Source: Acidimicrobiia bacterium (lineage in GTDB: Bacteria > Actinomycetota > Acidimicrobiia > Spongiisociales > JAHEDJ01). From it: 32,969 bases of DNA. Position 1 is the first letter of the stretch. Every line of letters begins with the position of its first letter. The position numbers were made by a program, and so were the translations under genes. Location: positions 1-32,969 of the forward strand of contig JARGFH010000043.1 of NCBI GenBank assembly GCA_029210695.1. The letters run 5' to 3'. Shown here in pieces: positions 5,650-29,059 of the stretch. The notes beneath the pieces are model-generated. The model made no database searches, was not told the origin of the DNA, and saw only the letters and a program-made list of their open reading frames with translations.

Positions 5650-5674
5650 CAGTCAGCCATTACGGTGACTGGTG

Positions 5675-8600: not shown

Positions 8601-9055
8601 CGGCACCGTGGGGTGGGGTTCTGGTCGGAAGGACGCCTGGCCAGCGGGTAGACCCGGCGGCTTCGGAGATTGTCTACCCGCTCGGTGCGACCCCAGCGGA
8701 ACGGAGGGAGACCGCCCGGCGACGGCTGGCCGACCTGATCGACATCTACCGGCGGGGCCTGCGGGAGCCGATCCCCCTCTTTGCCGAGACCTCGGCCGCC
8801 TGGGCGCGGGCACCGGAGAGAGACCGGGCCGGCAAGGCCAACGGCAAGTGGCAGAACGATCGATTCGACCCGGAATGTGCGGACCCTCACCATCTCGCCG
8901 TGTTCGGGGAGGAACGCAGCCTCGTTGACCTGTTGGATGAGCCGCTGCGTGCCGACGAGGGGCCGCCTGCGTTTCCTGAGGCCGGCAGCCGCTTTGAGGC
9001 CTATGCGCGGCGCTTGTGGGAGCCACTGCTGGCCGCCATGGTGGAGGCCGAATGA
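5675..9055 (+). CDS. recC: Exodeoxyribonuclease V, RecC subunit
   Basis: The 1,126-residue protein begins like RecC: a short strand, then VPTRGIERWISQELS at about 39-53, corresponding to the helicase motif Ia area of these inactivated helicase folds. It also has LLGMDDGVFPR near residue 657, a RecC hallmark, and a C-terminal inactivated nuclease-like domain. Length matches E. coli RecC (1,122). RecC recognises Chi in E. coli and splits the DNA strands in the RecBCD complex that processes double-strand breaks and degrades phage DNA. GTG (5672) and ATG (5675) are adjacent; I prefer ATG, since the weak GGTG at 5664-5667 is better spaced from it. The stop overlaps the recB start by 4 nt (ATGA), so the subunits are translationally coupled. 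Hairpins precede the gene. Confidence 0.92.
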   Translation: MLGLYRSDDPDVLVGLLADLLRDPLDDPFATETVSVPTRGIERWISQELSLRLGTSVGSDGVAANIDFPSPYRLIADLTRQATGRDRRLDPWNRTRLIGPVLRALDHSIDAEWMVTIRRFVEGSESTLEMPTGRRVEAARKIAGLFTRYDSHRPGMIQRWALGDECGPDGSAVAFRHEWQPRLWREVRSIIGEPSQAELLPELIEVVRAGSHVGLPSRISVYGLTALPQAHQQILTALGETVGVHLFLLHPSPGLWEAVSDVSGPMTSARNIARPDDPTVGLAVHPLLDSWGAESRELQLIVAGAKSETAVTGVDRQDTLIRRLQADIRANRPPGEETAPPDTSIQIHSCHGPTRQVEVMRDAILHALADDPTLEPRDVIIMCPDVETYAPLVEAAFTPQSSDGIGGFTSSFRMPDLRIRITDRAPGGSNPLTELTEQVLYLACSRLELTQIVEFARRPPVQWRFRLSDDDLATLADLAGDMQVSWGLHEPHRDRHGLDGRPERTWQAGLQRLLAGVFMPDTDTDLIAGVLPLSGVEAQEADVAGRLASLVDGLELVVAGLAEPRSGSEWIESILSGIEAVAVPERGSEWQWASLQRAVADLIPAELEETRLTLQEVRAVLAPLGSGRPTRHGHRTGDLTVSTLVPMRSVPHRIIGLLGMDDGVFPRNAGRDGDDLLAAYPLVGDRDALTEDRQLLLDALMAARDSLIITYSGRDEHTNADRPPCVPVAELLDVLHTMTGIAHNPDHLSELVVSHPLQPFDPLNFTVGSLRNGGPWGFDRQLLAGAETLAAGDASGAEHTVPVVDSPDTDDIALADLIGFFQHPVKAFARQLGLTYYKSVEAVDDNIPTELDPLSKWGVGDRYLRARLSGNDRAVALAAEVARDVLPPANLGAVALDEAVEIADRILEVTDELVDLSGGRAPRRGEVVLDDGIRLAGTVTDIYGTHVATVGFSRLKSKHLLTVYINLLFVTALEPSAPWGGVLVGRTPGQRVDPAASEIVYPLGATPAERRETARRRLADLIDIYRRGLREPIPLFAETSAAWARAPERDRAGKANGKWQNDRFDPECADPHHLAVFGEERSLVDLLDEPLRADEGPPAFPEAGSRFEAYARRLWEPLLAAMVEAE

Positions 9056-12000
9056 GCACCGCCACTCCGTTCGATCCGATCGGTGTTCTACCGGAGGGGC
9101 GGGTCGTGCTCGAGGCCAGTGCCGGCACCGGCAAGACCTGGACCATCGCCGCCCTCGTCACCCGGTATGTGGCTGAGATGGGTGTGCCGATCGAGGAACT
9201 GCTCGTGGTGACCTTCACCAGGGCCGCCACCAGCGAACTCCGCTCCCGGGTGTGGAACCGACTCGCCGAAGCCGAACGCTTCCTCCTGGCACCAGGCCCG
9301 ACCGATGACCCGGTGCTCAAGTTGCTGGCCGACACCGATCAAGCGACCCGTGATCTCCGCCGAATGCGCCTGCGCCAGGCCCTGCGCAACTTCGACGGAG
9401 CCACCATCGCCACCATTCACGGATTCGCCACCCGGGTTCTGCGCGGACTCGGATTCCTGTCCGGAAGCGATGCCAGTGCCGAGCCGATGGCCGACCTGTC
9501 CGAACTCATCAAGCAAATCGTCTCCGACACCATCGTCGGCCGCTTCGCCGACGCCGAGGAGCCGCGTCCCACGGCCAAACAACTGACCGAGATCATCGGC
9601 ACCATCGAAACCAACCACGACATCGCCCTCGTCCCGGCCGGCGGACAGGCCGAAGGGCTGGCCGCATTGCGATCGGAGCTGGCAGCCTCGATGCGGAGCG
9701 ACCTGGTTCAACGCACACAGGCCGGCGGGACGCTCACCTACGACGACCTGCTCATCTTCGCCCGCAACGCCCTCACCTCACCGACCGTCGGTGAAGCTGC
9801 CCGGGAACTGTTGCGTCGGCAATACCGGATCGCCCTGATCGACGAGTTCCAGGACACCGACCCCATCCAATGGGACATCTTCAACACCCTGTTCGATGCC
9901 GACGGGTCAACCCTGGTCGTCATCGGCGATCCAAAACAATCGATCTACTCGTTCCGCGGCGCCGACGTGCACGCCTACCTCGAAGCCGTTCAACGAGTAG
10001 ACACTCCTACCACCCTGGTGACCAACTGGCGGTCCGATAGTCCGCTCCTCGACGCTCTGGACCATCTCTTGACCGGGGCAACCTTCGGTGACGAACGGAT
10101 CGCCTACCGTCGGGTACACGCGGCGGCCCAGCACCTCCAGCCGAGGATCGAGGGGATTAGCGCGCCGCTCGAGATCCGGATGATCGGGCTTGATGCGCCG
10201 ATCCCGAAGATAAAGAAGGGCCTGCCGGCGGTTCCTCCGACCCGTGAGTTCATCGCCGCCGACGCGGCCGCTCAGATCAGCGCCCTCCTGCAAGGGACGG
10301 CCCGCATTTCGGATGATGACGGCCCCCGTCCCGTGCTGCCGGGTGACATCGCCGTGCTGTGTCGAACCCGCTACGAGGTTGACCATGTCAAGACGGCTCT
10401 TCTTGAGCTGGGTGTGCCGGCCGTGGTGGGTCGGACCGGCAGCGTATTCCAGTCGAGCGCAGCCGAAGACTGGCTGATTCTCCTCCAGGCTCTTGAGGAC
10501 CCGGCCAATGCCAGTCGGGCTCGCCGGGCCTCCGTGACCTCATTCATCGGGTGGACGGTGGCCGACCTGGCCGGCGCCGAGGACGACCAACTGCTCGATC
10601 TCCAGCAGCAGCTCGCCGGGTGGCGCGACGTGCTCCGCAGCAAGGGCATACCAACCTTGCTGGCGGCGGTCGGCCGCTCAACCGACCTGATACCTCGAGT
10701 GCTGCAGACTGAGGGAGGCCAGCGAACTATCACCGACATTCACCATCTCGCCGAGGTGCTGCACGAAGCGACCCTGCGCAACGGAGCCCAGTCCCTTTCT
10801 GCCTGGCTGGCGCAGGAGATTGCCGAGGCTGAGGAGAAGCCTGAGGATTCCGAAACCCGGACCAGGCGACTCGAAACCGACGCCGACGCCGTGCAGATCC
10901 TCACCATTCACGCTGCCAAAGGCCTCGAGTTCCCGGTCGTCTACTGCCCCTACCTGTGGGGGAGTCCACCGAGAGGCATGCCGATCCCCGTCTTCCACGA
11001 CCCAGTGACGGGGGAACGGACCGCCGACGTGGGCGGCAAGTGCAACTGGGACGACTTCGACACCCATCAGCAACTCGCCGAAGCCGAACGAGCCGGCGAG
11101 GAGTTCCGACTGCTCTATGTGGCACTGACTAGGGCCCGGCACCATCTGGTGGTCTGGTGGGCGCCGGTCGACGGTGTCGGCAAGCGGCCGCTCTCGAAGC
11201 TGCTGTTCAACCGGTCCCCCGACGACTACTCGATCGACCTGGCGGCCGACGCCACACTACTGACCGATGAGCGGATGGCCGGCAAGCTCGAACCGCTGCT
11301 CAGGCGGGCCGGGGCGACGGTCAAGCCGGTGCGGGTGACGGCCCTCCAGCAGGTTGATCGTTATCGGCCATCGGGCGGCAAGTCGCTCGAGCTGGTGGCC
11401 GCCGAATTCGGCCGATCCATCGACTACATGTGGCGGCGGACCTCGTTCTCCGGCATCACCGCCGGCGTTCCACACATTTTCGCCGGCGATGTGGATGTGG
11501 TGCTCAAAGACGACGAACCGGACGACATCGATGGTGGGTCCGACGAGGGGTCGCCATTGCTGATGGACTCTCTGCCGGGCGGTATGCGATTCGGAACCAT
11601 GGTCCACCAGATCTTTGAGCACGTCGACTTCGCGGCCGCCGACCTGCCGGGCGAACTGGCGGCTGAGGTGGAGAGCGCACTGCGCTGGTATCCCGAACCG
11701 ATCGATCCCGCCGTACTGGCGAACTCGCTGGAAGCGGCCATCCAAACACCGCTCTCCGAGGAGGCCGGTGGATTGCGTCTGCGCCAGATAATCCGTGGTG
11801 ATCGGCTTGACGAACTCGGGTTCGAGATGCCGATCCGATCGTCAGCGACCAGCCGGGTATCGGTTGGCGACCTCGCCCGGCTCTGGCGAGAGTTCGTGCC
11901 GGCCGACGATCCGTTGACGGAATACGCCGACCGACTGGAAGTCCTGCCGGCCTCCGCCTTTCACGGGTTCCTCTCGGGTTCCATCGACCTCACCTACCGG

Positions 12001-12369
12001 GCAGCCACGCCGGAAGGTGATGAGCGGTTCGTGATCATCGACTACAAGACCAACCGGCTTCCGATGCGAGGCAACACGGCCACGGTGCTCGACTACGCCC
12101 CCGAGCACCTGCTCGAGGTCATGTTCAACAGCAACTACCTGCTCCAATCGTTGCTATATCAGGTTGCGCTGCACCGGTATCTGCGCTGGCGGCAGCCGGA
12201 CTACGACCCGGCCAACCACCTGGGTGGATCGAAGTACCTTTTCGTGCGGGGAATGGTCGGCCCGGATACACCGGCGGTGGGAGACGGCCGCTGCGGAGTG
12301 TTCTCTTGGAACCCGGCTCCTGAACTCATCGAGGCGGTCAGTCAACTCTTCGAAGGGGAGCGACCATGA
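9052..12369 (+). CDS. recB: Exodeoxyribonuclease V, RecB helicase-nuclease subunit
   Basis: The 1,105-residue protein carries superfamily 1A helicase motifs: Walker A ASAGTGKTW at residues 22-30, LIDEFQDTDPIQWD near 260, LTIHAAKGLEFP near 616 and LLYVALTRARHHL near 687. The C-terminal nuclease also looks intact: GTMVHQIFEHVD near 849 supplies the His, GSIDLTYR near 977 and IIDYKTNRL near 996 supply the metal-binding Asp residues and the D-x-K lysine. RecB is therefore predicted to be the active 3'-5' helicase and nuclease of the complex. A longer reading frame begins 12 codons upstream at 9016, but the ATG at 9052 overlaps the recC stop as ATGA, and its protein begins just before the conserved helicase N-terminus. 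The 3' end overlaps recD by 4 nt. Confidence 0.95.
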   Translation: MSTATPFDPIGVLPEGRVVLEASAGTGKTWTIAALVTRYVAEMGVPIEELLVVTFTRAATSELRSRVWNRLAEAERFLLAPGPTDDPVLKLLADTDQATRDLRRMRLRQALRNFDGATIATIHGFATRVLRGLGFLSGSDASAEPMADLSELIKQIVSDTIVGRFADAEEPRPTAKQLTEIIGTIETNHDIALVPAGGQAEGLAALRSELAASMRSDLVQRTQAGGTLTYDDLLIFARNALTSPTVGEAARELLRRQYRIALIDEFQDTDPIQWDIFNTLFDADGSTLVVIGDPKQSIYSFRGADVHAYLEAVQRVDTPTTLVTNWRSDSPLLDALDHLLTGATFGDERIAYRRVHAAAQHLQPRIEGISAPLEIRMIGLDAPIPKIKKGLPAVPPTREFIAADAAAQISALLQGTARISDDDGPRPVLPGDIAVLCRTRYEVDHVKTALLELGVPAVVGRTGSVFQSSAAEDWLILLQALEDPANASRARRASVTSFIGWTVADLAGAEDDQLLDLQQQLAGWRDVLRSKGIPTLLAAVGRSTDLIPRVLQTEGGQRTITDIHHLAEVLHEATLRNGAQSLSAWLAQEIAEAEEKPEDSETRTRRLETDADAVQILTIHAAKGLEFPVVYCPYLWGSPPRGMPIPVFHDPVTGERTADVGGKCNWDDFDTHQQLAEAERAGEEFRLLYVALTRARHHLVVWWAPVDGVGKRPLSKLLFNRSPDDYSIDLAADATLLTDERMAGKLEPLLRRAGATVKPVRVTALQQVDRYRPSGGKSLELVAAEFGRSIDYMWRRTSFSGITAGVPHIFAGDVDVVLKDDEPDDIDGGSDEGSPLLMDSLPGGMRFGTMVHQIFEHVDFAAADLPGELAAEVESALRWYPEPIDPAVLANSLEAAIQTPLSEEAGGLRLRQIIRGDRLDELGFEMPIRSSATSRVSVGDLARLWREFVPADDPLTEYADRLEVLPASAFHGFLSGSIDLTYRAATPEGDERFVIIDYKTNRLPMRGNTATVLDYAPEHLLEVMFNSNYLLQSLLYQVALHRYLRWRQPDYDPANHLGGSKYLFVRGMVGPDTPAVGDGRCGVFSWNPAPELIEAVSQLFEGERP

Positions 12370-14228
12370 CCGAGCGGGTGTTTCAATTGTCGGGTCTGCT
12401 CGACCAGTTCCGCCAGGCAGGAGTGCTGACCGACGTCGACGCCTACGGGTCCGCCACCATCGGCCGGATCGTCGGGGAGGAGTCCGCCGGGGTTCTGTTG
12501 GCGGCTGCCCTGGCCGTGCGCGGCACCAGGTTCGGGCACGTGTGCATCAATCTCGCCGACATCCAGAACACCGTGGTGGTCGAGGGCGGCGACCAGGAAG
12601 CCATCGACGCACTGCCCTGGCCCGATCTTGACCGCTGGCGGTCGGCGGTGGGTGAGAGCCCGCTTGTGATGTGCGACGGGTTGGCGCCGCTGGTGTCGAC
12701 CCGGAATGGCCTGTACCTCCAGCGCTACTTCGACTATGAACAGCGGCTGTTTAGAGCTCTCGCAGGCCGGGCGACAGAGCCGGGGTTGGTGGCGGGGTCG
12801 TCGCAGGTTGGGGGAGTGCTCGATGGACTGTTCCCTACTCAGGACGACCGGGTCGATCTACAAAGGCTGGCAGTTGCCGCCGCCCTAACCGGCCGGCTGA
12901 CGGTGATCGCCGGCGGCCCCGGAACCGGCAAGACGACCACCATCGGGAAGCTCCTGATGGCGTTGGCCTCTGTGGACGGAACGGTGGAGGTGGCCGTTGC
13001 CGCTCCGACAGGAAAGGCAGCCGCCCGGCTGACCGAGGCTATTCATGAGCAAGTCGAAGATATCGAACTTGATGACCCGATCCGGGTGCGGCTGTCAGGT
13101 GTAGAGGCGTCGACGATTCATCGGCTGTTGGGGTTCCATCCGGCCCGCGGGAAGTTCAGGTATGGGGCCGATCGACCGCTGCCTCACGATCTGGTGATCC
13201 TGGATGAGACGTCGATGGTGTCGTTGCCGCTGGCTGCCAAGCTGCTCGACGCCATGCGGCCGGACGCCTCGCTGGTGCTGGTTGGAGATCCCGATCAGCT
13301 CGAATCGATCGAAGCCGGCACGGTCCTGGGCGACATTGTCGGGCCCGTCGACGGTGGGACGGTCATGTCGCCGGCCCGGCGCTCGCAGCTGGCGGAGTTG
13401 GTCCCGGGCCTGGGGCAGGCTGAGGCTGGGTCGACACCGCCGGCGATCGGCGATGCGGTAGTGGTCCTGGAGAGAGTCCACCGTTTCGGCGAGGACTCGC
13501 CGATTGCCGACCTGGCCGACGCCATCCGGGCAGGCGATAGGGACAAGGCCGTCGAATTTCTCAGGTCTTCACCGGAGGGCCTGGTGTGGATCCCGGAAGT
13601 TGAGAATCCGGATGAGGGCGATCCGGTGTTGTGGGCTGCGGTGCTTGGCTCTCGGGTTCCGATGGTTGAGGCGGCGATGCGTGGGGACGCAGAAGAGGCG
13701 CTGCGGTTGTTGGCTGAGCAAGCGGTGCTGTGTGCTCACCGGCGGGGCCTGTATGGGGTGGGCCGCTGGGTTCCGGCCATAGAACGGCGAATCCAGGCAG
13801 AACTACCTGAGTTCAAACCATCCGACGAATGGCATGTCGGCCGCCCGGCGATGGTGACCCGCAATGACTACCGGCTGAACGTCTACAACGGCGACATCGG
13901 GGTGACGGTCGCCTTGGGCGACGGACTTATGGTCGCCTTCCCGGGTGACGAAGGCCCACGGTTCATCAGCCCGGCCCGGCTGTCGGACATCCAAACCGTC
14001 CACGCCATGACGATTCACAAGAGCCAGGGTTCACAGTTCGCCGGCGTAGCAGTGATCTTGCCCGAACCAATGTCCCGCCTGCTGACCCGGGAACTGTTCT
14101 ACACGGCAGTCACCAGGGCTTCAGATCGCGTGACCATCGTGGGCAGCGAAGAGTCGATACGGACTGCCATCAGCCGGCGGGTGGCCCGGGCGTCGGGGTT
14201 GCGTGAGTTGCTGTGGGGTGACTCATAA
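12366..14228 (+). CDS. recD: Exodeoxyribonuclease V, RecD helicase subunit
   Basis: The 620-residue protein is of normal RecD length. It has Walker A GGPGTGKTTT near residues 182-191, Walker B VILDETSMVS near 278, and the C-terminal HAMTIHKSQGSQF near 546 followed by LFYTAVTRASDRV. These identify a 5'-3' superfamily 1B helicase. The N-terminal 170 residues form the RecB-interacting region found in true RecD and not in the longer stand-alone RecD2. The ATG overlaps the recB stop (ATGA), completing a recC-recB-recD operon. The 157-nt downstream gap contains a perfect 18-bp palindrome. No key residue appears to be missing. Confidence 0.95.
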   Translation: MTERVFQLSGLLDQFRQAGVLTDVDAYGSATIGRIVGEESAGVLLAAALAVRGTRFGHVCINLADIQNTVVVEGGDQEAIDALPWPDLDRWRSAVGESPLVMCDGLAPLVSTRNGLYLQRYFDYEQRLFRALAGRATEPGLVAGSSQVGGVLDGLFPTQDDRVDLQRLAVAAALTGRLTVIAGGPGTGKTTTIGKLLMALASVDGTVEVAVAAPTGKAAARLTEAIHEQVEDIELDDPIRVRLSGVEASTIHRLLGFHPARGKFRYGADRPLPHDLVILDETSMVSLPLAAKLLDAMRPDASLVLVGDPDQLESIEAGTVLGDIVGPVDGGTVMSPARRSQLAELVPGLGQAEAGSTPPAIGDAVVVLERVHRFGEDSPIADLADAIRAGDRDKAVEFLRSSPEGLVWIPEVENPDEGDPVLWAAVLGSRVPMVEAAMRGDAEEALRLLAEQAVLCAHRRGLYGVGRWVPAIERRIQAELPEFKPSDEWHVGRPAMVTRNDYRLNVYNGDIGVTVALGDGLMVAFPGDEGPRFISPARLSDIQTVHAMTIHKSQGSQFAGVAVILPEPMSRLLTRELFYTAVTRASDRVTIVGSEESIRTAISRRVARASGLRELLWGDS

Positions 14229-16367: not shown

Positions 16368-19300
16368 ATGGTGGCGGCAGTGGGTGATCGAGTCCTCGAG
16401 CAAGTGCGCCAATGGCGCGACGAGCTAATCAGTCTTTCGCGGCGCGACAGGGTCCTCTACTTCCTGCCGACCAAGTCAGCCACGCTTCTCGTCAGATCGC
16501 CCGACCTGACGAAGGTACTTTCGGGATTCGAATGGGCCAACGGATGGGGATTCTTCACCCCTCCTGACATCGATGAGGCGGAAGACAATCACGACGCTCC
16601 GCTGATCGAAGTCGACGACTCCCCCGAAGGAGCGCCAGATGATCGACCCGACCAAGCGCCTAAACCTCGCCCAGACGAGCTTGTCACCCAGAAGGACACA
16701 CGCCGCAGCCTTGAATCCGCACTCCGGAACCTAGACCGACGGTCCAAACAGGAGTTCATGGACAAAGGCATCTGGATCCTTTACCTCGCCGCCGGATTCG
16801 TTGAGTGGGTTGACCCGGCCGACGAACGGCAAGTCCGCACTCCGATTCTCCTCATACCGGTGCGATTGGATCGCGAAGGCCCGCGCGACCCATTTCGTCT
16901 CGTGGCAACCGATGAAGACACCGTGCTGAATCCGGCCCTCGTGGTCAGGATGGCATCCGATTTCGGAATCGATCTGCCTGGTCTCCCCGAAGAGGACGAC
17001 CTCGGCGTCAACGCCTTCCTTGAGTCGGTAGAGCTTGCCATGAGAGATCGAGACTGGAGAGTCACACGCGACCTGGCGCTCGATGTTTTCTCGTTTCACA
17101 AGGAGGTGATGTATCGGGACCTCCTCGAAAACGAAGCCGAGATCTCAGTCCACGACATGGTGAGGGCACTCGCTCTGGGCGGGGACGCCGATGTGTCGCT
17201 TGGATTCGCGGCACCAACCGAAGATCAACTCGACGATCTCTACCCGCCCGAAGAGTCACCCACGATTCTCGACGCGGATGCCACCCAGAGGGTTTGTCTG
17301 GCCGCCGCCAAAGAGGGCCACAGCTTTGTGATGGATGGCCCGCCCGGAACCGGCAAGAGCCAAACGATCGCCAACCTCATCGCTGAAAGCCTGGCCGACG
17401 GCAAGACCGTGCTGTTCGTGAGCGAGAAGATTGCAGCCCTGGAAGTCGTCAAAGCTCGACTCGATGAAGCTGGTCTTGGCGAATACCTCCTTGAGCTTCA
17501 TTCACACAAGGCCACACGCAAAGAAGTGGCGAAGACCTTGGCCTCCGCCCTCAAGACGCGACCTGTCGCCAAGAACGGCATGAGCGGTGGCGAACTCGCT
17601 CGCCTCAAAGCGCGCCGGCTGGCCCTGACGGACTACGCCATCGCCCTTAACGAATCCCGACTACCTCTTGGAAGGAGCCTGGGCCGTGTGTTGGGTCGGG
17701 CGTCACAACTTCACTCGTTCCCGCAAATCCAGCTTCCCTCAGGAGTTGACGAGCAGCTCGATGAGCAATGGATGAGTCAGATACTTGACACCGCCGGCGA
17801 CCTTTCACGGTCATGGGGCCCGGTAGAGCGAGCCGACGAATTTGTATGGCGTGGTCTCCAGCCATCGTTTGCGGATCTAGCCGGGAAGAGGAGGCTCGCA
17901 GATGCTCTCGATCGTTGCTCCGATGCGTTGGGTGATCTTCGGAGAGCGACAGATTTTGTGTCCTCAGAGCTTGCGATGGGTGCAGTGGCGACGGCTACGG
18001 GTTCTCAGCGCCTCGCAGACGTAGTGGGTGTGCTGCAGGAACGTGTTGATGTGCCATCAAGTTGGCTAACTAGGGATGAACTGGATTCGCTACTGAGTCA
18101 CGTCGATGCTCTGGAAACTACGGCGCAGACTCGAGCAGAGAGCGTCGGAAGTCTCGCTGGCATAGTTGGAGGGCAGTGGGGTTCTCTGGTTCCGGCCGAT
18201 CGAGAGATGTGGGAATCGGCCAACGGCGCTCTTGCCGATCTGGAGTTTGGGTGGAGCCCGGTTGACGGTTGGGTCCACTCCGACCTCAGGAACGCCCGGG
18301 AGTTCCTCGAGACGTCGAGTGGTCAGCTGCGGAGGATCGAAGAGCACGCTAGAGCCATCTCCCGTGCGATGGGTCTCGACATTAGGGGTCTTACGCTCGC
18401 CCGCGCTCAAGAGCTCGTAGCCCTGACCGAGCTAGCACGCATCGAATATCCTCCGGAGCCAAATTGGCTTGATGAGGGTGGTCTCGCGGCCGCCCGTGCC
18501 GCTCATGCCGAGCTCTCAGCAGCCGTAGAGGAGTTTCGGAAGAAGGCTCTCAATCTCGACGGAGTCTTCACCGAGGAAGTGTTGAACCTCGATCTGGGCG
18601 GGCTCAAGGCACGATTCGACACGGTTCACCGCGGAGTCAGGAAGCTCGGCAGCAGCTACCGAGAAGATAAGAAGGCCCTGGTGACCGCCACACCCGATGG
18701 GAAAGCACGCAAGGATGCGCTGGCGCGGCTAGGTGATGCTGTCGAATGGAAACGCGTTGCTCTGGAGCTCGAAGGCACAGAACAGCAGTGTGCTACCGAT
18801 CTAGGCGAGCACTACTACAGGCGCACCGAGACGGACTTCATTCAGTTGGCCGCGTCGATAGACGCGGCGGAACTTGCTATCAATCTCGCAGGTGCACGGC
18901 TCGATCCTGCCGCTTTCAAGGCGACCCTCGGGTTAGGGGACAAGCGCGACGTTGAGCTCCATCGCACCGCTGAAGACTTACGCTCTGAAGTTCGAGCCTG
19001 GCTCTCGTATGCGTCCACACTTCTGCCGCTGACCGCCGACGTGCTTTCGTCCAAACCCGTCGAATCGCTTTCCTTCTGGAGCGACGGTGCTGTGGAGCCA
19101 TTTCGGGTTCTTGAAGAGGTATCCGAGCGATCCTCTCGGGCATGCGGAAGAGCGTTGACTTTCAGCCTCCTCTCCGAAGCCCTGCCTCTGCGGAGCTCGA
19201 TCGAGACCCATGATCAATACTTCGACGCTTTTGCTTCGTCCAACGGCCCGGAATACGGGGGGTACTACCACGGCTGCACAACGGATTGGGCCGATCTTCG

Positions 19301-21899
19301 AGAGCGTCTCAAATGGGCACAACGCCTTCGAGCGGCCGCAGGGCAGCCGCTCGGTCAACAATCAGTGGATCGATTGAGAGACGCCATCCTCGAGCCTCAC
19401 GTCATCCGGCCTGCAGTTGATGAGTGGCGTCTGGCCGTGAACGATTTCCGAAACACCTTCACGGACGAACGCTCGGAAGAGCTTGGAGATGAGTTCGGGG
19501 CGAGCTTCCCCGACGTGCAGCAACTCCTTGTTATTTTCACCCAAACGACCGCTGACATCGATGAGTGGGCAGCTCACGAGAACGCCCGCCGTCGGCTCAA
19601 TGAGCTGGGCTGCGCCGAAGCAGTCGAGAGTTGTATCACCAAATCCTTGCCTCGCGACCAGATCGAAGGTGGGCTCGAACGGGCGGTGCTTGAACGATGG
19701 ATCGATCTCACGATCGAAAGTGACCCTCGAATGGACAAACTCCGAGCGGAGGACAGGGACGCGTTGGTCCAAGAGTTCCGCAAACTCGATCGCAAGCTGA
19801 TCCGATCGATGGCAGCTCGGGTGATCGAGAAGTGCAATGCACGCAAACCCAGCACCACAGTCGGGGCGGCCGGCATCATCCTCAGAGAAGGCGAGAAGAA
19901 ACGTCGTCACATGCCGGTGCGAGAGCTCATTCAAAGGACATCCGATGTGGCACAGGCAGCCAAACCCTGCTTCATGATGAGCCCTCTATCGGTCAGCCAG
20001 TTCCTGACCCCCGAGACCAGGTTCGACCTCGTGATCTTCGATGAGGCATCCCAAGTGAAGCCTGCGGACGCCGTCAACTGCATCTACCGGGGCCGCCAGT
20101 TGGTGGTGGCGGGCGATCAGAAGCAACTCCCACCCACATCATTCTTCGAGCGGGTCGGGCTCGACGGCGACGACGAATACCAGGAAGACCAGTTTGACGA
20201 GTTCGAGTCCGTTCTAGACCTGGCCAAGGCCGGTGGCATGGAGTCCCTGCCGCTTCGCTGGCACTACCGCAGTCAGCACGAAGATCTAATCACTTACTCG
20301 AACTACTCCTTCTATGACGGCAAGCTGGTCACATTCCCTGGAGCCATCGCTTCTGATCCAGACCTCGGTGTGGCCTTCTACAAAGCAGATGGCGTCTACC
20401 GGCGGGGCGGCGCAAGAGACAATCCCGAAGAGGCGGAGCTGGTCGTCGACCGTGTAATCCACCACGCGATCAACCATCCGCAGCTGACCCTCGGCGTCGT
20501 TGCCTTTTCGGAGGCACAGGCGTCACGCATCGAGTACGCAGTAGACCGGCGCCGAGCGAATCATCCAGACCTCGACGCGTTCTTCACAACGGACCGACTC
20601 GCTGGGTTTTTTGTCAAGAATCTCGAGAACGTTCAGGGTGACGAACGGGACATCATGATCTTCAGCGTCGGCTACGGCTTTGACGAAGCAGGCAAGTTCA
20701 CGCTCAACTTCGGACCGCTCAACCGGGCCGGGGGCGAAAGGCGGCTCAACGTTGCTATCACCCGAGCGCGCCGACGGGTCGAGCTCGTTGCGTCGATTCT
20801 GCCAGACGACATTGCGGGCAACGCAGGATCGTCGGGCGTGCAGCATCTGCGGCGCTATCTCGAGTTCGCCAGGTCCGGGATCTCAGCTCTGGCCATCGAT
20901 GTCTCCGTGACCGGGTCGGATGTCGAGAGTCCGCTCGAGGACGAGGTTCTCCGTTCGGTACGGGCGATGGGGTTTGATGCCCACCCGCAGGTAGGGGTGG
21001 CCGACTACCGGATCGATCTCGGGATCGTGCATCCAGACCATCCTGGGCGCTACATCCTCGGCATCGAATGCGACGGTGCGATGTATCACTCATCGCGGGT
21101 AGCCCGTGACCGGGACCGATTGAGGCAAGAGGTGTTGGAACGATTGGGCTGGAGGATCCACCGAATATGGGGCCCTTCGTGGTTCGCTGATCGGGCGGGC
21201 CAAGAGTTGCTGCTGCGAGCGACGATTGAGGATTCCCTCGTGAACGGCCCAAGACGAGCGGGATTGACGCGACGGAGAGTCGAGCAAGTCGTGATCGAGT
21301 CAGTAGACCTCGACGCACGCCCCGAATGGGCCGAGCCCTATCGAGTGGCTAAGCCACGTCGCCTTGGTATGGATCTCCATGATCCGCTGGCGAGACGTCG
21401 GCTTGAGGAAGCACTCGAGGAAGTCGTCAATGTCGAATCTCCAGTTCACGAGGAGGTCGTTCTGCGGCGTATCCGAGAGGCGAACGGAGTTGGAAGAGCT
21501 GGAACCCGTATCCGTGACGCCTTCAACGCGGCAGTCAAGGCAGGTTCTCGAAATCGGGTTGTCAACCGGGACCCGGACGGTTTCCTTTGGCTCAGCGGAC
21601 ACCCTCTGACGACCGTCAGGGCTCCAGTTGAGGGTGTTCCGGCGACGGTGCGAGCGGCAACTGAGATTCCCCAGACCGAACTGCAAATGGCGGTCTGTCG
21701 GTTAGTTGCGGACGCGAAGCTCGTCGATCGAGATGAGCTCACGTCCTCGGTGGCGAAACTGTTTGGATGGTCCCGTCGGGGAACAGAAATCGCCGGCGCA
21801 CTCGATCTCGCCGTGGACACGTTGATCGGCAATAACCAACTCATTGACGCCGGCGGCGATCTGCGTGTTGCCGGCGCGGGGTGCCCCTCTACCGACTAG
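16368..21899 (+). CDS. DUF4011 / superfamily 1 helicase / Vsr-like nuclease / DUF3320 protein, Hhe-like antiphage candidate
   Basis: This 1,843-residue protein has four recognisable parts. The N-terminus (WRDELISLSRRDRVLYF, about 16-32) is the DUF4011 signature. An interrupted helicase follows: Walker A GPPGTGKS near 325, then after a long helical insert IFDEASQVKPADAV near 1221, VAGDQKQLPP near 1246, LRWHYRSQHEDLI near 1295, NVQGDERDIMIFS near 1420 and LNVAITRARRRVEL near 1463. Next is a Vsr-like (MTES_1575-type) endonuclease at about 1518-1610, with SPLEDEVL, DYRIDLGIV and GIECDGAMYH supplying acidic residues. The C-terminus (SPVHEEVVLRRI near 1690 onward) is DUF3320. Large single-gene helicase-nuclease proteins of this architecture, such as Hhe, are reported as antiphage systems. 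All helicase and nuclease motifs look intact. The ATG lies directly behind GGGAG; GTG at 16371 or 16380 gives better spacing, so the true start may be up to four codons later. Confidence 0.88.
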   Translation: MVAAVGDRVLEQVRQWRDELISLSRRDRVLYFLPTKSATLLVRSPDLTKVLSGFEWANGWGFFTPPDIDEAEDNHDAPLIEVDDSPEGAPDDRPDQAPKPRPDELVTQKDTRRSLESALRNLDRRSKQEFMDKGIWILYLAAGFVEWVDPADERQVRTPILLIPVRLDREGPRDPFRLVATDEDTVLNPALVVRMASDFGIDLPGLPEEDDLGVNAFLESVELAMRDRDWRVTRDLALDVFSFHKEVMYRDLLENEAEISVHDMVRALALGGDADVSLGFAAPTEDQLDDLYPPEESPTILDADATQRVCLAAAKEGHSFVMDGPPGTGKSQTIANLIAESLADGKTVLFVSEKIAALEVVKARLDEAGLGEYLLELHSHKATRKEVAKTLASALKTRPVAKNGMSGGELARLKARRLALTDYAIALNESRLPLGRSLGRVLGRASQLHSFPQIQLPSGVDEQLDEQWMSQILDTAGDLSRSWGPVERADEFVWRGLQPSFADLAGKRRLADALDRCSDALGDLRRATDFVSSELAMGAVATATGSQRLADVVGVLQERVDVPSSWLTRDELDSLLSHVDALETTAQTRAESVGSLAGIVGGQWGSLVPADREMWESANGALADLEFGWSPVDGWVHSDLRNAREFLETSSGQLRRIEEHARAISRAMGLDIRGLTLARAQELVALTELARIEYPPEPNWLDEGGLAAARAAHAELSAAVEEFRKKALNLDGVFTEEVLNLDLGGLKARFDTVHRGVRKLGSSYREDKKALVTATPDGKARKDALARLGDAVEWKRVALELEGTEQQCATDLGEHYYRRTETDFIQLAASIDAAELAINLAGARLDPAAFKATLGLGDKRDVELHRTAEDLRSEVRAWLSYASTLLPLTADVLSSKPVESLSFWSDGAVEPFRVLEEVSERSSRACGRALTFSLLSEALPLRSSIETHDQYFDAFASSNGPEYGGYYHGCTTDWADLRERLKWAQRLRAAAGQPLGQQSVDRLRDAILEPHVIRPAVDEWRLAVNDFRNTFTDERSEELGDEFGASFPDVQQLLVIFTQTTADIDEWAAHENARRRLNELGCAEAVESCITKSLPRDQIEGGLERAVLERWIDLTIESDPRMDKLRAEDRDALVQEFRKLDRKLIRSMAARVIEKCNARKPSTTVGAAGIILREGEKKRRHMPVRELIQRTSDVAQAAKPCFMMSPLSVSQFLTPETRFDLVIFDEASQVKPADAVNCIYRGRQLVVAGDQKQLPPTSFFERVGLDGDDEYQEDQFDEFESVLDLAKAGGMESLPLRWHYRSQHEDLITYSNYSFYDGKLVTFPGAIASDPDLGVAFYKADGVYRRGGARDNPEEAELVVDRVIHHAINHPQLTLGVVAFSEAQASRIEYAVDRRRANHPDLDAFFTTDRLAGFFVKNLENVQGDERDIMIFSVGYGFDEAGKFTLNFGPLNRAGGERRLNVAITRARRRVELVASILPDDIAGNAGSSGVQHLRRYLEFARSGISALAIDVSVTGSDVESPLEDEVLRSVRAMGFDAHPQVGVADYRIDLGIVHPDHPGRYILGIECDGAMYHSSRVARDRDRLRQEVLERLGWRIHRIWGPSWFADRAGQELLLRATIEDSLVNGPRRAGLTRRRVEQVVIESVDLDARPEWAEPYRVAKPRRLGMDLHDPLARRRLEEALEEVVNVESPVHEEVVLRRIREANGVGRAGTRIRDAFNAAVKAGSRNRVVNRDPDGFLWLSGHPLTTVRAPVEGVPATVRAATEIPQTELQMAVCRLVADAKLVDRDELTSSVAKLFGWSRRGTEIAGALDLAVDTLIGNNQLIDAGGDLRVAGAGCPSTD

Positions 21900-21904
21900 T
21901 GAAC

Positions 21905-21925
21905 GGTGAGGAGCGGAACCTCACC
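21905..21925. terminator. Hairpin between convergent genes, probably a bidirectional terminator
   Basis: GGTGAGG (21905-21911) pairs perfectly with CCTCACC (21919-21925) around a seven-base loop. It fills the 21-nt gap between the helicase stop and the stop of the convergent 276-codon gene, whose last codons lie in the right arm. No T-run is present on either strand, as is common for GC-rich actinobacterial terminators. Confidence 0.5.
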
Positions 21926-22751
21926 ACCTCTCCATGGCTCCCTGGATCAGCCTCGTCTCTTCGACACAGAGGTGGCCGCGGCTCTCTAGGTCGGCGATCA
22001 CGTCGGGTCCTTTGTCGACCGGGAACGACGCGAAGGTTCCATTGAGGGTGGTTTCGTAGCGATGGCCGAGCCGGTTGATCAGGTCGCCGGGCAAGGTGTC
22101 GTTCTGGATCAACTCGAACATCGGTGGATAGTCGCCACACGAGTACGAGTCGATGTCGTTGGGGTCGAACGGGTCGTCGTCGGCAGGTAGGCCATTCTCC
22201 CAGTTCTCCTCTTCCCAACGCCTGGCGGCCGCCTCGAGAGCGCTGGGGATGGGCCTGCCGACGAAGATGTGTTCGACGTACTCGTCGAGACTCCCGTATC
22301 CGGCCCGACCCAGGATCTCCTGATACCGCTCCAACGACGCAGCCTCTCGTACCTCTCCCCAGGTGGTGCAGGTCTGCATGATCCGCATGATGTCGGCGAC
22401 GTCCTCTGCGTCGGCCCGGGGCACCACGAAGAAGTACTCGTTGGCATCGGCCCCCATCACCGTCGCATACACGAACTCCTCGAGTCGGATAATGGCCAGC
22501 ATCCGCTTGCCTCCCCGATCCGGATAGGCAAGCACGTGCCAACGTTCGGTGATCGAGACCCGGGTGGCGCCATCTTCGGTGATCAGGTCGGCCCATCCCG
22601 ACCGGAACCGTGCTTTCTCACCGTCGCCGAAACGGACGGTGATCGTCTCGCCCTCAACCGACAGCACCTGGGCGCTTCGCCAGGACTCGTGATCCTCAGA
22701 TGCTTTGCGGGCCTGAATCCAGTGGACCTTGTGTTCGCGGTGATACTCCAT
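21921..22751 (-). CDS. Acidic protein of unknown function, third gene of a minus-strand cassette
   Basis: The 276-residue protein is rich in Asp, Glu, Arg and Trp and has no signal peptide or membrane segment. Residues 11-58 form a strand-rich unit (VHWIQARK, SAQVLSVEGETITVRFGDGEKARF) that resembles a small SH3- or Tudor-like barrel. Residues 60-130 are a second alpha/beta unit, and the rest is helical with an acidic DDDPFDPNDIDSY stretch. I do not recognise the family. The ATG has GGAAGGCGAGG just upstream. It follows the 455-codon gene after 81 nt on the same strand, so it may belong to the same transcript, and it ends against the convergent helicase gene. Being the last gene and loosely spaced, it could be a passenger instead of a cassette member. 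Confidence 0.7.
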   Translation of the reverse strand: MEYHREHKVHWIQARKASEDHESWRSAQVLSVEGETITVRFGDGEKARFRSGWADLITEDGATRVSITERWHVLAYPDRGGKRMLAIIRLEEFVYATVMGADANEYFFVVPRADAEDVADIMRIMQTCTTWGEVREAASLERYQEILGRAGYGSLDEYVEHIFVGRPIPSALEAAARRWEEENWENGLPADDDPFDPNDIDSYSCGDYPPMFELIQNDTLPGDLINRLGHRYETTLNGTFASFPVDKGPDVIADLESRGHLCVEETRLIQGAMERW

Positions 22752-22832
22752 TTCCTCGCCTTCCGGCCGACCTCATCGACCTACTTCCAAGGTACGACAC
22801 GGGTGTGACAGTTTTCGGCTCTCGGCGTGGCG

Positions 22833-24200
22833 TCAGCCGTCGGGAAGCAGGTCCGGATTGAAGCCGACCCGTGACCAGCCGGTGTCGAGAACGACCCGGT
22901 TGTATTCGGCCTGAGCACGTGTGCCGTCGGCCGGGCGCGGCCGATCCAGGGCGGAGATGAGTCGTTTGGCGAGCATCAGCCACTGGGCGTAGTTGATGGT
23001 CAGCGGGTTGCCGCCGGCCAGCGCCAGCTTGCCGAGGTTCCCGGCGGCGGCAGTGCCGTGGGCCAGCAACGACATGGCCTGGTAACGCGGATGGTCGGAG
23101 ATTCGATCGGAACCGGCCCGGGCGGCTTCCGCTTCGGTGTCGGCGCGGTAGGCCTCGTCGTGATGTTGTCGGAGGGCGAAGTAGGAGCGGAGGGTGGCTT
23201 CGACGGTGGCAACCGACGTGCTCATCGTCAGGAAATGCCAGCTGTCGTAGCCACGCATGAACATCCAGCGCGACAATTCGGCCAATGTCCGATCGGTATC
23301 TCCAAATGATCCGGACTTGAGTGTGAGTAGGGCCGTCCAGCCGGGTAGGGGGAGACCGCTTCTGGTGCCGACGTCGGAGAGCAAGTGCAGCACCTCGAGT
23401 CCGAAGGCGAGTGCCGGGTTGGCCACCTGTAAGCCCGGTGAAGCGATCACGGTTACGTCGCCGGATGGGTCGATGCCGGTCAGAGTTCCCCGGACGATGT
23501 CGATCATGCCCAGCCCGAGCCCGAAGAGAGGGTCGTGGCCGAACGTCTGCACGCGGTGGGTCTGGGGGATGAAACCGGGAATGCCCGTCCCGATCACTCG
23601 ATCGAAGGGAACCCGAGCCAGCACTGCAAGCCAGTTGTCGCTGTCCACCGCAAGGTCCCGGAGCGCCCCGGTCAAGGCGCTGCCGGTGTGGATGCTGCCT
23701 TCCCACAAGGTCGTCGAGGGGATCTTCACTACCAGATAGTCGACCATTGCCCCCAACACTCCGGCCGCCAGCGCGGCGGTCAGGTCGTAGGGGTCGAGGT
23801 GCCCTCGAACGTCGAACCCGCCGTTGTGGCGCTGTTCGATTCGTTCGACCTCCGTCCGGTCGAGCAGCAGGTCGAGATTTACGGTTGCGGGGTCGATCTG
23901 CCGTTCGTTCAGGCTGATGCGGGCGCGGGCGACCACGTCGTCCCAGGTTGCGGGTCGCGGCGCCGCTGTCGGTCGAGTCGCCGGCTCCGATGGTTCGGGG
24001 ATCCGTGGGGGAGGGGCACCGCGCTCGGCGGCCATCTCCTCGACCTCTCGTCGTAGATTTGTGGCGCGCGACTCGAGAGCGTCCAGTGCTCTCCCCGTGG
24101 CCCCGGCGGCTTCGAGGTCGAGGTCGGCTCCATCGCTCAGCTCTTCGAGATCTGCAGCGAGGAACCAGAGTGCAACCTCCAGCCCGTCGGGTTCGCTCAT
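22833..24200 (-). CDS. 455-residue protein of unknown function with GHDPLFG motif, paired with a Gly-rich membrane protein
   Basis: The N-terminus is acidic and helical (1-60), followed by a Pro-rich linker (62-85) and a long alpha-helical body. The most distinctive segment is TFGHDPLFGLGLGMIDIVRGTLT (written here as three parts: TFGHDPL, FGLGLGMI, DIVRGTLT, about 219-241), flanked by hydrophobic runs at 142-160 and 255-275 that could be membrane-associating or buried helices. I have an impression of similar HDPL-x-G-x-x-FG proteins in other bacteria near coiled-coil membrane proteins, but I cannot verify this. No enzyme motif is recognisable. The ATG overlaps the stop of the upstream Gly-rich gene by 4 nt (ATGA), so the two products are likely made in fixed proportion and may form a complex. 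Confidence 0.75.
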   Translation of the reverse strand: MSEPDGLEVALWFLAADLEELSDGADLDLEAAGATGRALDALESRATNLRREVEEMAAERGAPPPRIPEPSEPATRPTAAPRPATWDDVVARARISLNERQIDPATVNLDLLLDRTEVERIEQRHNGGFDVRGHLDPYDLTAALAAGVLGAMVDYLVVKIPSTTLWEGSIHTGSALTGALRDLAVDSDNWLAVLARVPFDRVIGTGIPGFIPQTHRVQTFGHDPLFGLGLGMIDIVRGTLTGIDPSGDVTVIASPGLQVANPALAFGLEVLHLLSDVGTRSGLPLPGWTALLTLKSGSFGDTDRTLAELSRWMFMRGYDSWHFLTMSTSVATVEATLRSYFALRQHHDEAYRADTEAEAARAGSDRISDHPRYQAMSLLAHGTAAAGNLGKLALAGGNPLTINYAQWLMLAKRLISALDRPRPADGTRAQAEYNRVVLDTGWSRVGFNPDLLPDG

Positions 24201-25276
24201 TCGAGGTCGTCTTCTTGCGATCGCATCCAGAGGATCGTCTCCTCCAGCGCTTCGAGCGTTTCCTCGAGATCCGTCACCCGCTTGGAGTTCTCATCGTTGA
24301 GGAGGCGCTCTTCGGCGACCGTGCCCTTCAGCTCCTCGGCCTGTCCGGCCAGGTCTTCGATGACGGCCTGGGCTTTCACCAGATCCGTTTGGCCCTGGAG
24401 CAGGGTGAGCTTGTAGGTGACCTGGAGTTTGACGAGTTCACCGCGGGCCTGGGCTGCGCCGAGTTGGAAGAGCTTGATACCCCCTCCGCCGCCCACAACT
24501 CCGAGTGCGGCGCCGGCTCCGGCGACCATCCACATGCCGCCCGCCATGCCGGCCCCCCCGGCCGCCAGCGCTCCACCGCCCAGCAACGCCAGTCCGTGGG
24601 CCGTGGCCGCAGCACCCGACAATCCCGCCGCAGCACCGAGAGCCGCGCCGAACAGGGGAGCGGCCATGAAGCCACCCAACCCGAGTACCACCGCCGCCCC
24701 GACCCCGACGAGGCCGACCTTTCCCCAATTCTGTGTGCTGTGCGACTTCTTGGCGTCGGTTCCGGCCTTCTCAATACGCCGGATCACCTTCTTGTCCTCG
24801 CCCACGAGCGGGGCCAGGCGTTGCAGGGCGCGGCGGCGGATCTTGCCGCGATATCGGAGCGAATACGGAGAGAAAGGGTCGAGGAAGAACACCTCAATCA
24901 GGAACGTGATCCGGGTGTCGGGCTCCGCCGCCGTCATCGACCCGACCGCCGCCCCCGGATCGAGTGTTGGGCCGTTGGGGGTCCTCAGCGCGTTCAGGGT
25001 TTCCCGTTGGATCTGGACGACTCGATCCATCTTCTGGCGACGTTTCTCATCCCGTTCATTCGAAGCGATGTGCTCGGCAACGAGGAACTGGGCGGCGGCC
25101 AGTGCGACTGCAAACTCGGCCGGTTCGGTCGGAACAGGGCCCGGGTCGGCCCCGTCGAGGATCGACCGGCGGGGATCAAGCTTCGGAGGGCGAGTGGGAA
25201 TGATCCGTGTCATTAGGCGCTTGAGGCCTTGGGGCGGATCGTCGGTTAGTTCGGCGGCGTTTAGTTGTTCGGCCAT
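24197..25276 (-). CDS. Gly/Ala-rich membrane protein with C-terminal coiled coil
   Basis: The 359-residue protein has a charged helical N-terminal region (1-180, including FFLDPFSPYSLRYRG at about 130-144). A striking Gly/Ala-rich hydrophobic block follows at about 186-268, with many GxxxG-like spacings that fit two to four packed membrane helices. The C-terminal segment at about 276-356 (AQARGELVKLQVTYKL onward, ending DLEETLEALEETIL) is a heptad-like coiled coil. Such layouts occur in membrane-inserting or pore-forming proteins; that function is only a possibility here. The frame is open to 25474, but ATG at 25276 gives the natural N-terminus MAEQLNAAEL; upstream codons look like the shadow of the opposite gene. 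The ribosome-binding site is weak. It is the first gene of a minus-strand cassette and overlaps the next gene by 4 nt. The start lies 6 bp from a possible divergent start at 25283. Confidence 0.75.
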   Translation of the reverse strand: MAEQLNAAELTDDPPQGLKRLMTRIIPTRPPKLDPRRSILDGADPGPVPTEPAEFAVALAAAQFLVAEHIASNERDEKRRQKMDRVVQIQRETLNALRTPNGPTLDPGAAVGSMTAAEPDTRITFLIEVFFLDPFSPYSLRYRGKIRRRALQRLAPLVGEDKKVIRRIEKAGTDAKKSHSTQNWGKVGLVGVGAAVVLGLGGFMAAPLFGAALGAAAGLSGAAATAHGLALLGGGALAAGGAGMAGGMWMVAGAGAALGVVGGGGGIKLFQLGAAQARGELVKLQVTYKLTLLQGQTDLVKAQAVIEDLAGQAEELKGTVAEERLLNDENSKRVTDLEETLEALEETILWMRSQEDDLE

Positions 25277-25282
25277 TCCACA

Positions 25283-25696
25283 ATGGTACGGGTCGATGGA
25301 AGCGTCTGGGAAGGCTATGTTCGAGGTAGCGGCGAAGGGAGTGGAGTGTCCGGCGGACGCAGGGTCTATGTAGTTGAACTGTCCGACGCGGCCGGCGAAC
25401 GGTCCAATCCGGCTTTCCCGAATGTCTACGTTGGCGAGACGGGCCGAACCGTCGAGGAACGCTTCGCCACACACAAGGCCGGAGGTCGCACTGCCAGCAG
25501 GACCGTCACGCGCTTCGGTTTACAGCTTCGACCCGATTTGTACGAAGGGCTACCGGAGTACGAAACCGAAGCTGAATCGGTGGCGGCCGAGCAGCGCCTG
25601 CGTCGCAAACTCGAGAGACAGGGCTACACGGTGCACGGGGGCACGATGGGGATGGCCCAGACGATGGCCGTCCGCTTTCCCCGGGACGGTGGGTGA
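25283..25696 (+). CDS. GIY-YIG-like nuclease domain protein
   Basis: From ATG 25283 the protein has 137 residues. RVYVVEL (27-33) and NVYVGETGRT (47-56) correspond to the two halves of the GIY-YIG motif, RTVEERFATHK (55-65) supplies the conserved Arg, and ETEAESVAAEQRL (94-106) supplies a Glu in the position of the metal ligand. The Gly and Ile positions of the first half are altered, so activity is uncertain. Members of this superfamily cut DNA in repair, restriction and homing. A GTG at 25346, with GAAGGGAG just upstream, would remove 21 poorly conserved residues and leave room for divergent promoters, so it is an equally good start. The last codon overlaps the sirtuin GTG start by 4 nt, so the two genes form a coupled pair. 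Confidence 0.65.
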   Translation: MVRVDGSVWEGYVRGSGEGSGVSGGRRVYVVELSDAAGERSNPAFPNVYVGETGRTVEERFATHKAGGRTASRTVTRFGLQLRPDLYEGLPEYETEAESVAAEQRLRRKLERQGYTVHGGTMGMAQTMAVRFPRDGG

Positions 25697-26541
25697 GTAT
25701 CGACCTCTATGAACTCACCACCGACCTGAAGGTCCGTCTCGCCAAGGCTGTACACCGGCCGGGGAGGGTGATCGCCCTCACCGGAGCCGGCATCTCGGCC
25801 GAGTCGGGCATCCCCACCTTCCGCGGTCCGGGCGGGTTCTGGACGATCGGTTCGCAGGTCTACAGGAGCGAGGAGATCTCTACCTTCGAGTTCTTCGCCA
25901 TCCATCCGGAACAGTCCTGGGCCTGGTTCCTGTGGCGTCGCAACACCTGGGGCGACGCCCAACCCAATGCCGCCCACCGCGCCCTGGTGCGGTTGGAGCA
26001 GGCGCTGGGGGAGCGGTTCGTGGTCATCACCCAGAACATCGACGGACTCCACCTGGCCGCCGGGCACAATCCCGAACGGGTCTACGAAGGGCACGGCAAC
26101 CTCCAGATGATGAGGTGCAGCGCTCCCTGCGGGCTTGATGTGTACCCGATCCCGCCCGGCATCGGGCCGACCGGGCGGGATGAGCCGCTCGGTGAAGAGG
26201 ACCGCGATCTGCTGGTCTGTCCGAAGTGCGGGGCGATGACCCGACCCCACGTGTTGTGGTTTGACGAGACCTACAACGAGGAGCACTACCGGATCTACTC
26301 GGCCCGCATCGCCGCCCAGCAGGCCTCGCTGCTGCTGGTGATCGGCACCTCCGGCAGCACCCGGCTGCCCAACGACGTGTTCGCCATGGCCGGGCTCAAC
26401 GGGGCCACCCTCGTCGACATCAACCCAGAACCCAACCCGTTCTCGCTCATGGCCGAACGGATGGACCACGGCTTGGCGATCAAGGCACCCGCCACCGTGG
26501 TGGTGCCGCCTATCGTCGACTTCATCGAAGAGGTGCTGTGA
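25693..26541 (+). CDS. cobB: NAD-dependent protein deacylase, sirtuin family
   Basis: The 282-residue protein has all main sirtuin features: GAGISAESGIPTFR at 31-44, TQNIDGLH at 113-120, the catalytic His in GHGN at 134, and a zinc site of Cys142 and Cys146 with Cys176 and Cys179. IGTSGSTRLPN near 217-227 binds the NAD ribose. It should remove acyl groups from protein lysines, consuming NAD, in the cytoplasm. Some divergent Sir2 domains are defence NADases, but the complete zinc site and catalytic core point to an ordinary CobB-type deacylase. The GTG start overlaps the stop of the GIY-YIG-like gene (GTGA), so translation is coupled. The M28 peptidase follows after 58 nt. Confidence 0.93.
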   Translation: MSIDLYELTTDLKVRLAKAVHRPGRVIALTGAGISAESGIPTFRGPGGFWTIGSQVYRSEEISTFEFFAIHPEQSWAWFLWRRNTWGDAQPNAAHRALVRLEQALGERFVVITQNIDGLHLAAGHNPERVYEGHGNLQMMRCSAPCGLDVYPIPPGIGPTGRDEPLGEEDRDLLVCPKCGAMTRPHVLWFDETYNEEHYRIYSARIAAQQASLLLVIGTSGSTRLPNDVFAMAGLNGATLVDINPEPNPFSLMAERMDHGLAIKAPATVVVPPIVDFIEEVL

Positions 26542-28441: not shown

Positions 28442-29059
28442 ATGGAGATGAGCGCCACAAGGATCCCCGCCAACAAGGGCAAGAGATACCCGACCGAAGT
28501 GTTGACGCCGGACGAGGTCCGAGCTCTGATCCGCGCATGCCCCGACGACACGCCCGTCGGCCTACGAAACCGGGCTCTCATCGCGCTGTTCTATCGCACC
28601 GGCCTGCAGTGCGCCGAGGCGCTCGCCCTCAGACAGAAGGACATCGATCGCGTAATCGGAAGTGTGACGGTTCTTTCCGGGAAGGGCGGACGCAGGCGGA
28701 CCGTCGGAATCGATCCGGGAGCGTTCAAGGTCATCGATGAGTGGCTCGACACGCGCCGTGAGTTGGGCATCGACTCAGTGGCTCCGCTGTTCTGCAGCAT
28801 GGAGGGGCGAAGGCTCTCGGGCTCGTATGTCCGAATGCTGCTCCCTCGTTTGGCCCGTGATGCCGGGATCGAGAAGAGAGTTCACGCTCATGGCCTCCGT
28901 CACACCCATGCCTTCGAACTTCTGATGGAGGGCATCGAGATTCCGGTCATCCAAAGACAACTCGGCCACCTGTCGCTGCAGACCACGGACACCTATTTGT
29001 CGCACATTGCTCCGCGCGATGTCATCCGGCGGATCAACGAACGAAGCTGGTCGCTCTAG
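28442..29059 (+). CDS. Tyrosine recombinase, catalytic domain only, first catalytic Arg replaced by Gln
   Basis: The 205-residue protein matches the catalytic domain of phage-integrase family recombinases: Lys81 in SGKGGRRR, His150 and Arg153 in HGLRH, His176 in LGHLS and Tyr185 in TDTYLSH. The first active-site Arg, usually in TGLRxSE, is Gln56 here (TGLQCAE, codon CAG). The N-terminal SAM-like core-binding domain is missing; the protein starts about 20 residues before the catalytic fold. It may bind DNA weakly or act with a partner, or be inactive. ATG 28442 and 28448 are both possible starts; no clear ribosome-binding site precedes either. A 14-bp inverted repeat lies just upstream and a tRNA T-arm-like sequence just downstream. 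Reading frame and C-terminus are intact, so it is not an obvious fossil. Confidence 0.85.
   Translation: MEMSATRIPANKGKRYPTEVLTPDEVRALIRACPDDTPVGLRNRALIALFYRTGLQCAEALALRQKDIDRVIGSVTVLSGKGGRRRTVGIDPGAFKVIDEWLDTRRELGIDSVAPLFCSMEGRRLSGSYVRMLLPRLARDAGIEKRVHAHGLRHTHAFELLMEGIEIPVIQRQLGHLSLQTTDTYLSHIAPRDVIRRINERSWSL

Follow-up and report, generated by a model that had tools for sequence, protein, structure and literature searches.

Genes 1 and 2 of the region described here very probably form a divergent two-gene anti-phage system of the Bunzi type (BnzA-BnzB), which by its sequences falls into a lineage without a recognisable TerB domain. They lie on a 32,969-nt stretch of DNA from an Acidimicrobiia bacterium that was analysed as a whole (the window). 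In PMC10952713, BnzA and BnzB are the genes of the published anti-phage system Bunzi (Millman et al., 2022, cited there), and Bunzi is catalogued under the TerB domain; a 2026 review still lists it among systems of unknown mechanism (PMC12926258). The earlier note had taken the pair for an undescribed system. Gene 2, however, is the BnzB of Bunzi, and the pair is a variant rather than something undescribed because Bunzi is published, with TerB as its catalogue domain. We file it as a variant and not as canonical Bunzi because the PADLOC BnzA model misses gene 1. Canonical features were taken for this comparison from the PADLOC models, PMC10952713, and the homologues. The window pair shares with Bunzi homology over most of the length of BnzB, the order and coupling of the two genes, and a Gly-rich membrane block followed by a coiled coil in BnzA; it differs in that its BnzA, a member of a lineage of its own (II), has no detectable TerB and escapes the BnzA model. 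The Shango system (TerB, helicase, ATPase; PMC10250203) resembles only lineage I Bunzi, through its TerB-domain component; its other genes differ, and no TerB was detected in the window pair.

All three open reading frames are on the minus strand, at the positions that the earlier note gave. Gene 1 (24197-25276, 359 aa) lies directly 5' of gene 2 (22833-24200, 455 aa). The two overlap by 4 nt at 24197-24200, CGAATGAGC (ATGA, the start ATG of gene 2 and the stop TGA of gene 1), and a third gene follows (21921-22751, 276 aa), as had been noticed; it starts 81 nt past the end of gene 2 and has its own purine-rich stretch ahead. A genome of the same order retains the pair at 79% (gene 1) and 82% (gene 2) identity, with dN/dS of about 0.12 and 0.24, respectively. 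Genes 1 and 2 are under purifying selection and are therefore real and selected genes.

The third gene encodes an acidic protein (pI 4.7) that lacks a hydrophobic segment and matches no family in Pfam, PADLOC, or NCBIfam. Only one of the 57 BnzB loci has a homologue of it nearby, encoded on the opposite strand, and across the phylum 4 of 198 genomes carry one, that of the window included; gene 3 was ruled out as a system component on these counts. The earlier description of an acidic partner thus holds for the acidity and not for the partnership, and we judge gene 3 to be a neighbour of the pair.

PADLOC identifies gene 2 as a BnzB homologue (PDLC03834, E 1.5e-40, residues 80-411). BnzB is the sole PADLOC family that it matches, and no model in Pfam or NCBIfam does so; its relatives elsewhere score as BnzB down to 1e-96 in PADLOC. 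An alignment of 55 homologues contains 15 invariant positions: P161, D200, H215, R216, H222, D223, P224, G227, D234, H272, D276, G282, P286, M313, and G317. Those of the set that lie within the BnzB core stay invariant when plasmid and phage copies are added. H215-R216 (23553-23558, minus strand, as are the motifs that follow) precedes the GHDPLFG segment to which the earlier note had drawn attention. The segment spans residues 221-227 (23520-23540); H222, D223, P224, and G227 are invariant, and G221, L225, and F226 vary among the homologues. A second motif, H272...D276...G282...P286 (HLLSDVGTRSGLPLP), is encoded at 23343-23387, and the four residues named are invariant in it. The His/Asp set (HR...HDP..G and HxxxD...GxPxP) suggests a metal site like that of metal hydrolases. 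The claim that the second protein has no recognisable enzyme motif is doubtful in view of this set, which comes with no proven family.

The model of BnzB gave nothing significant against the PDB in Foldseek (best E 0.73) and reached a Z of 5.5 at most in VIA-align, and a profile of the core found no match among PDB sequences. Because the fold matched nothing in the PDB, we refer to BnzB catalysis as putative. The nearest lead is YdjM (PF04307), a family of putative membrane metal-dependent hydrolases. HHalign aligned the HxxxDxxTxxGxP stretch of BnzB with YdjM, and the His-rich first motif, HR..H in BnzB, may be a further likeness, although its spacing differs. The probability for the second motif, HxxxDxxTxxGxPxP, was about 10% over 24 columns only; the score exceeded those of all 500 column shuffles (two runs, 200 and 300). 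An actinobacterial subset gave no match, a diverse set a weak one. The YdjM HMM did not match the BnzB of the window, and the family was absent among those listed for the 55 BnzB proteins. BnzB also has a single strongly hydrophobic segment where YdjM has several. Because the comparison is driven by motifs and BnzB has only this one segment, the likeness to YdjM-like membrane hydrolases is kept as a weak and unproven lead.

Gene 1 encodes a divergent BnzA whose N-terminal domain is, by sequence, no recognisable TerB. In the AlphaFold2 model, residues 52-181 (24734-25123, minus strand) form a domain of six main helices with pLDDT mostly above 80. A hydrophobic block, presumed to insert into the membrane, follows at residues 187-267 (24476-24718, minus strand); it is defined by its composition (27 Gly and 23 Ala among 81 residues) and by hydrophobic 19-mers, and AlphaFold2 confidence over it is low. 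The C-terminal part (residues 274-358; 24203-24457, minus strand) consists of coiled-coil-like helices, modelled as long helices at 274-294, 299-326, and 328-358. The Gly/Ala-rich membrane block and the coiled coil that had been read from the first product are thus borne out, with 50 of 81 residues Gly or Ala and long C-terminal helices. The block is kept across the BnzA alignment.

The PADLOC BnzA model did not match gene 1 up to an E of 10, and it missed other lineage II BnzA proteins or reached 0.47 at best. A Pfam search found no TerB in the gene 1 protein, and the N-domain of its class aligned with the TerB region of lineage I at an HHalign probability of only 1.5%. The C-terminal modules of this class and of TerB-type BnzA aligned at 97.2% (E 4.3e-11). 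TerB-type BnzA is exemplified by a Rubrobacter relative, in which the gene 5' of BnzB scores as BnzA at 3.2e-37 in PADLOC and encodes a TerB-like N-domain, then the Gly-rich block and a coiled coil. We assign gene 1 to BnzA because its C-terminal module matches that of TerB-type BnzA and because strong loci of the PADLOC candidate component PDC-M09A, which it also matches, differ in the following gene. A Foldseek search of the PDB with the BnzA model gave nothing significant (best E 0.98), and VIA-align returned only generic helical matches for the C-terminus. A BnzA family profile picks up the TerB structure 2ou3 (E 5e-4) because it includes lineage I members.

When a genome collection covering 84,980 species was scanned with an alignment of five BnzB proteins, 57 independent loci were found. 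A BnzA-like gene lies directly 5' of BnzB in 51 of them, spread over many phyla. The earlier note had asked whether the two genes co-occur elsewhere or belong to a known housekeeping complex; they co-occur, and they were not traced to such a complex. L068, one of the six other loci, has a minimal BnzA that was seen by eye; the BnzB genes of L019 and L047 are at contig starts, and the sequence upstream of that of L040 is masked. In two cyanobacterial loci (L034, 7287-9080; L064, 3086-4999) the N-terminus of BnzB is long, helical and repetitive, and no gene for BnzA was found, possibly a single-gene form. On a Limosilactobacillus plasmid (L156, 2888-5146) and in a gut phage (L158, 682-3011) the BnzA part consists of two short genes before BnzB. 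Overlaps of bnzA and bnzB by 4 or 11 nt, as given by start codons picked by rule, are common among the loci.

BnzA proteins fall into three architectures, labelled by hand from BnzA alignments and neighbourhoods. Architecture I has TerB or a related N-region, and Pfam TerB is present in 23 of 52 BnzA; II has another helical N-domain and is found in the window, cyanobacteria, Bacillota, Bacteroidota, and Stahlbacteria; III is minimal, with about 120-200 aa. In a tree of the BnzB core, lineage II forms one side of a branch with support 98/95 and lineage III one side of a branch with support 100/98. The BnzA labels require 4 changes on this tree, as against 23.5 in shuffles. Partner architecture and BnzB lineage have thus travelled together, a co-diversification that is good evidence for one functional unit.

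Homologues of the pair have BREX, DISARM, and restriction genes among their neighbours, and the context is one of defence. Neighbours at 12 Bunzi loci include BrxL, PglZ, DrmA, DrmD, a type I MTase, and a type IV REase; regions round a housekeeping gene of the YdjM family in the same genomes showed no such defence genes among the 25 families listed, a contrast that is qualitative, not a rate, and is based on the first 25 families listed. Homologues also occur on mobile elements. One is encoded close to a type I restriction subunit on a plasmid of Priestia, and others are on plasmids of Limosilactobacillus and in two phage records; the Priestia plasmid pFDU301C is an example of a lineage II pair from Bacillota. 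Distant lineage III relatives of BnzB turn up in 462 plasmid records, most of them for conjugative and enterobacterial plasmids. On one Klebsiella plasmid (NZ_CP044051.1, IncHI2A; L160, 3007-5756) a gene for a trypsin-like serine protease is directly followed by a lineage III BnzA-BnzB pair, possibly a three-gene form.

In the window itself, gene 3 adjoins a DUF4011/MTES_1575 helicase-nuclease (16368-21899, plus strand). Its best PADLOC matches are PDC-S37 and Hhe, and its best NCBIfam match is ProA, below the cut-off of NCBIfam; the neighbouring antiphage candidate of the earlier note is real and ProA/Hhe-like. The window further contains BrxC (DUF6079, 1367 bits; 478-4167, minus strand), beside it a complete RecC-RecB-RecD-like operon (5672-14228, plus strand), and a tyrosine integrase (28442-29059). 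Divergent from BnzA, at 25265-26541 (plus strand), a GIY-YIG-like ORF and a Sir2-family gene share 4 nt; this stretch may be a further candidate for defence or may simply encode an ordinary deacylase.

Two other identities for the pair have to be weighed. It is very unlikely to be PDC-M09 instead of Bunzi. Gene 1 does match PDC-M09A at 8.2e-11, as do other lineage II BnzA proteins, and helices likewise come after a similar Gly-rich block in PDC-M09A (SGAAA..LAxLGGGxxAxGGxGMAxG). The match of gene 1, however, is confined to residues 163-324, for the most part the block and the coiled coil; gene 2 matches BnzB only. The strong PDC-M09A loci (G070, G108, and G081) have a different following gene, and no BnzB was present in the DNA examined around them, so that membership in PDC-M09 was rejected. 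At L145-L147, which are PDC-M09A loci, the block closely resembles the one in lineage II BnzA and the partner gene is different; by sequence, the Gly-rich block would be a membrane module shared by different defence candidates. Very unlikely, too, is a housekeeping or stress membrane complex unrelated to defence. It could draw on two Synergistaceae, in which the pair lies beside ordinary metabolic genes, and on two Rubrobacter contigs in which the pair is inside a trp gene cluster; in these (L014 and L015) a TerB-type Bunzi pair sits between trp genes (trpC side and trpF-trpB side), which is unusual for defence. Such a role does not fit a pair that is infrequent and patchily distributed (2 of 59 relatives), resides on plasmids and phages, has BREX, DISARM, and restriction genes nearby, and consists of genes that PMC10952713 gives as those of a published anti-phage system.

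As to mechanism, we favour a model with BnzA as adaptor and BnzB as effector. BnzA would be held in the inner membrane by its Gly-rich block and may bind BnzB through coiled coils, for which the long helices of both proteins are suited. Acting as membrane anchor and adaptor, it would leave the setting or tuning of the trigger to the exchangeable N-terminal domain, which differs by lineage: TerB in I, another helical domain in II, that of the window, and almost none in III. BnzB, with its invariant His/Asp set, would be the constant, catalytic-like effector. Infection would turn on BnzB damage at the membrane, and the cell would die or stop before phage release, an abortive outcome. A bolder reading, less likely than not, has all three Bunzi lineages combine a constant BnzB, membrane-associated and like a metal hydrolase, with a membrane and coiled-coil BnzA adaptor that carries an exchangeable sensor; TerB would then be dispensable, as the window would show, and the His/Asp site of BnzB would be the active principle. 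A rather doubtful alternative, the model of the earlier note, makes BnzA the killer, a membrane-perforating oligomer built on the Gly-rich block and coiled coil that BnzB would hold inactive or trigger. A Gly-zipper-like block with a coiled coil is indeed present in every BnzA class, even in the otherwise near-empty lineage III, and translational coupling suits a toxin kept by its partner. Yet the strictest conservation is in BnzB, whose 15 invariant positions with their polar His/Asp residues would be surprising in a protein that only inhibits; BnzA varies far more, with 2 invariant positions in its alignment, and in the two cyanobacterial loci no BnzA gene was found with BnzB.

The variant widens the Bunzi family by a TerB-less lineage that current models half miss, and it indicates that not all Bunzi systems need a recognisable TerB domain. 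The short list of invariant BnzB residues offers a direct handle on the mechanism of Bunzi.
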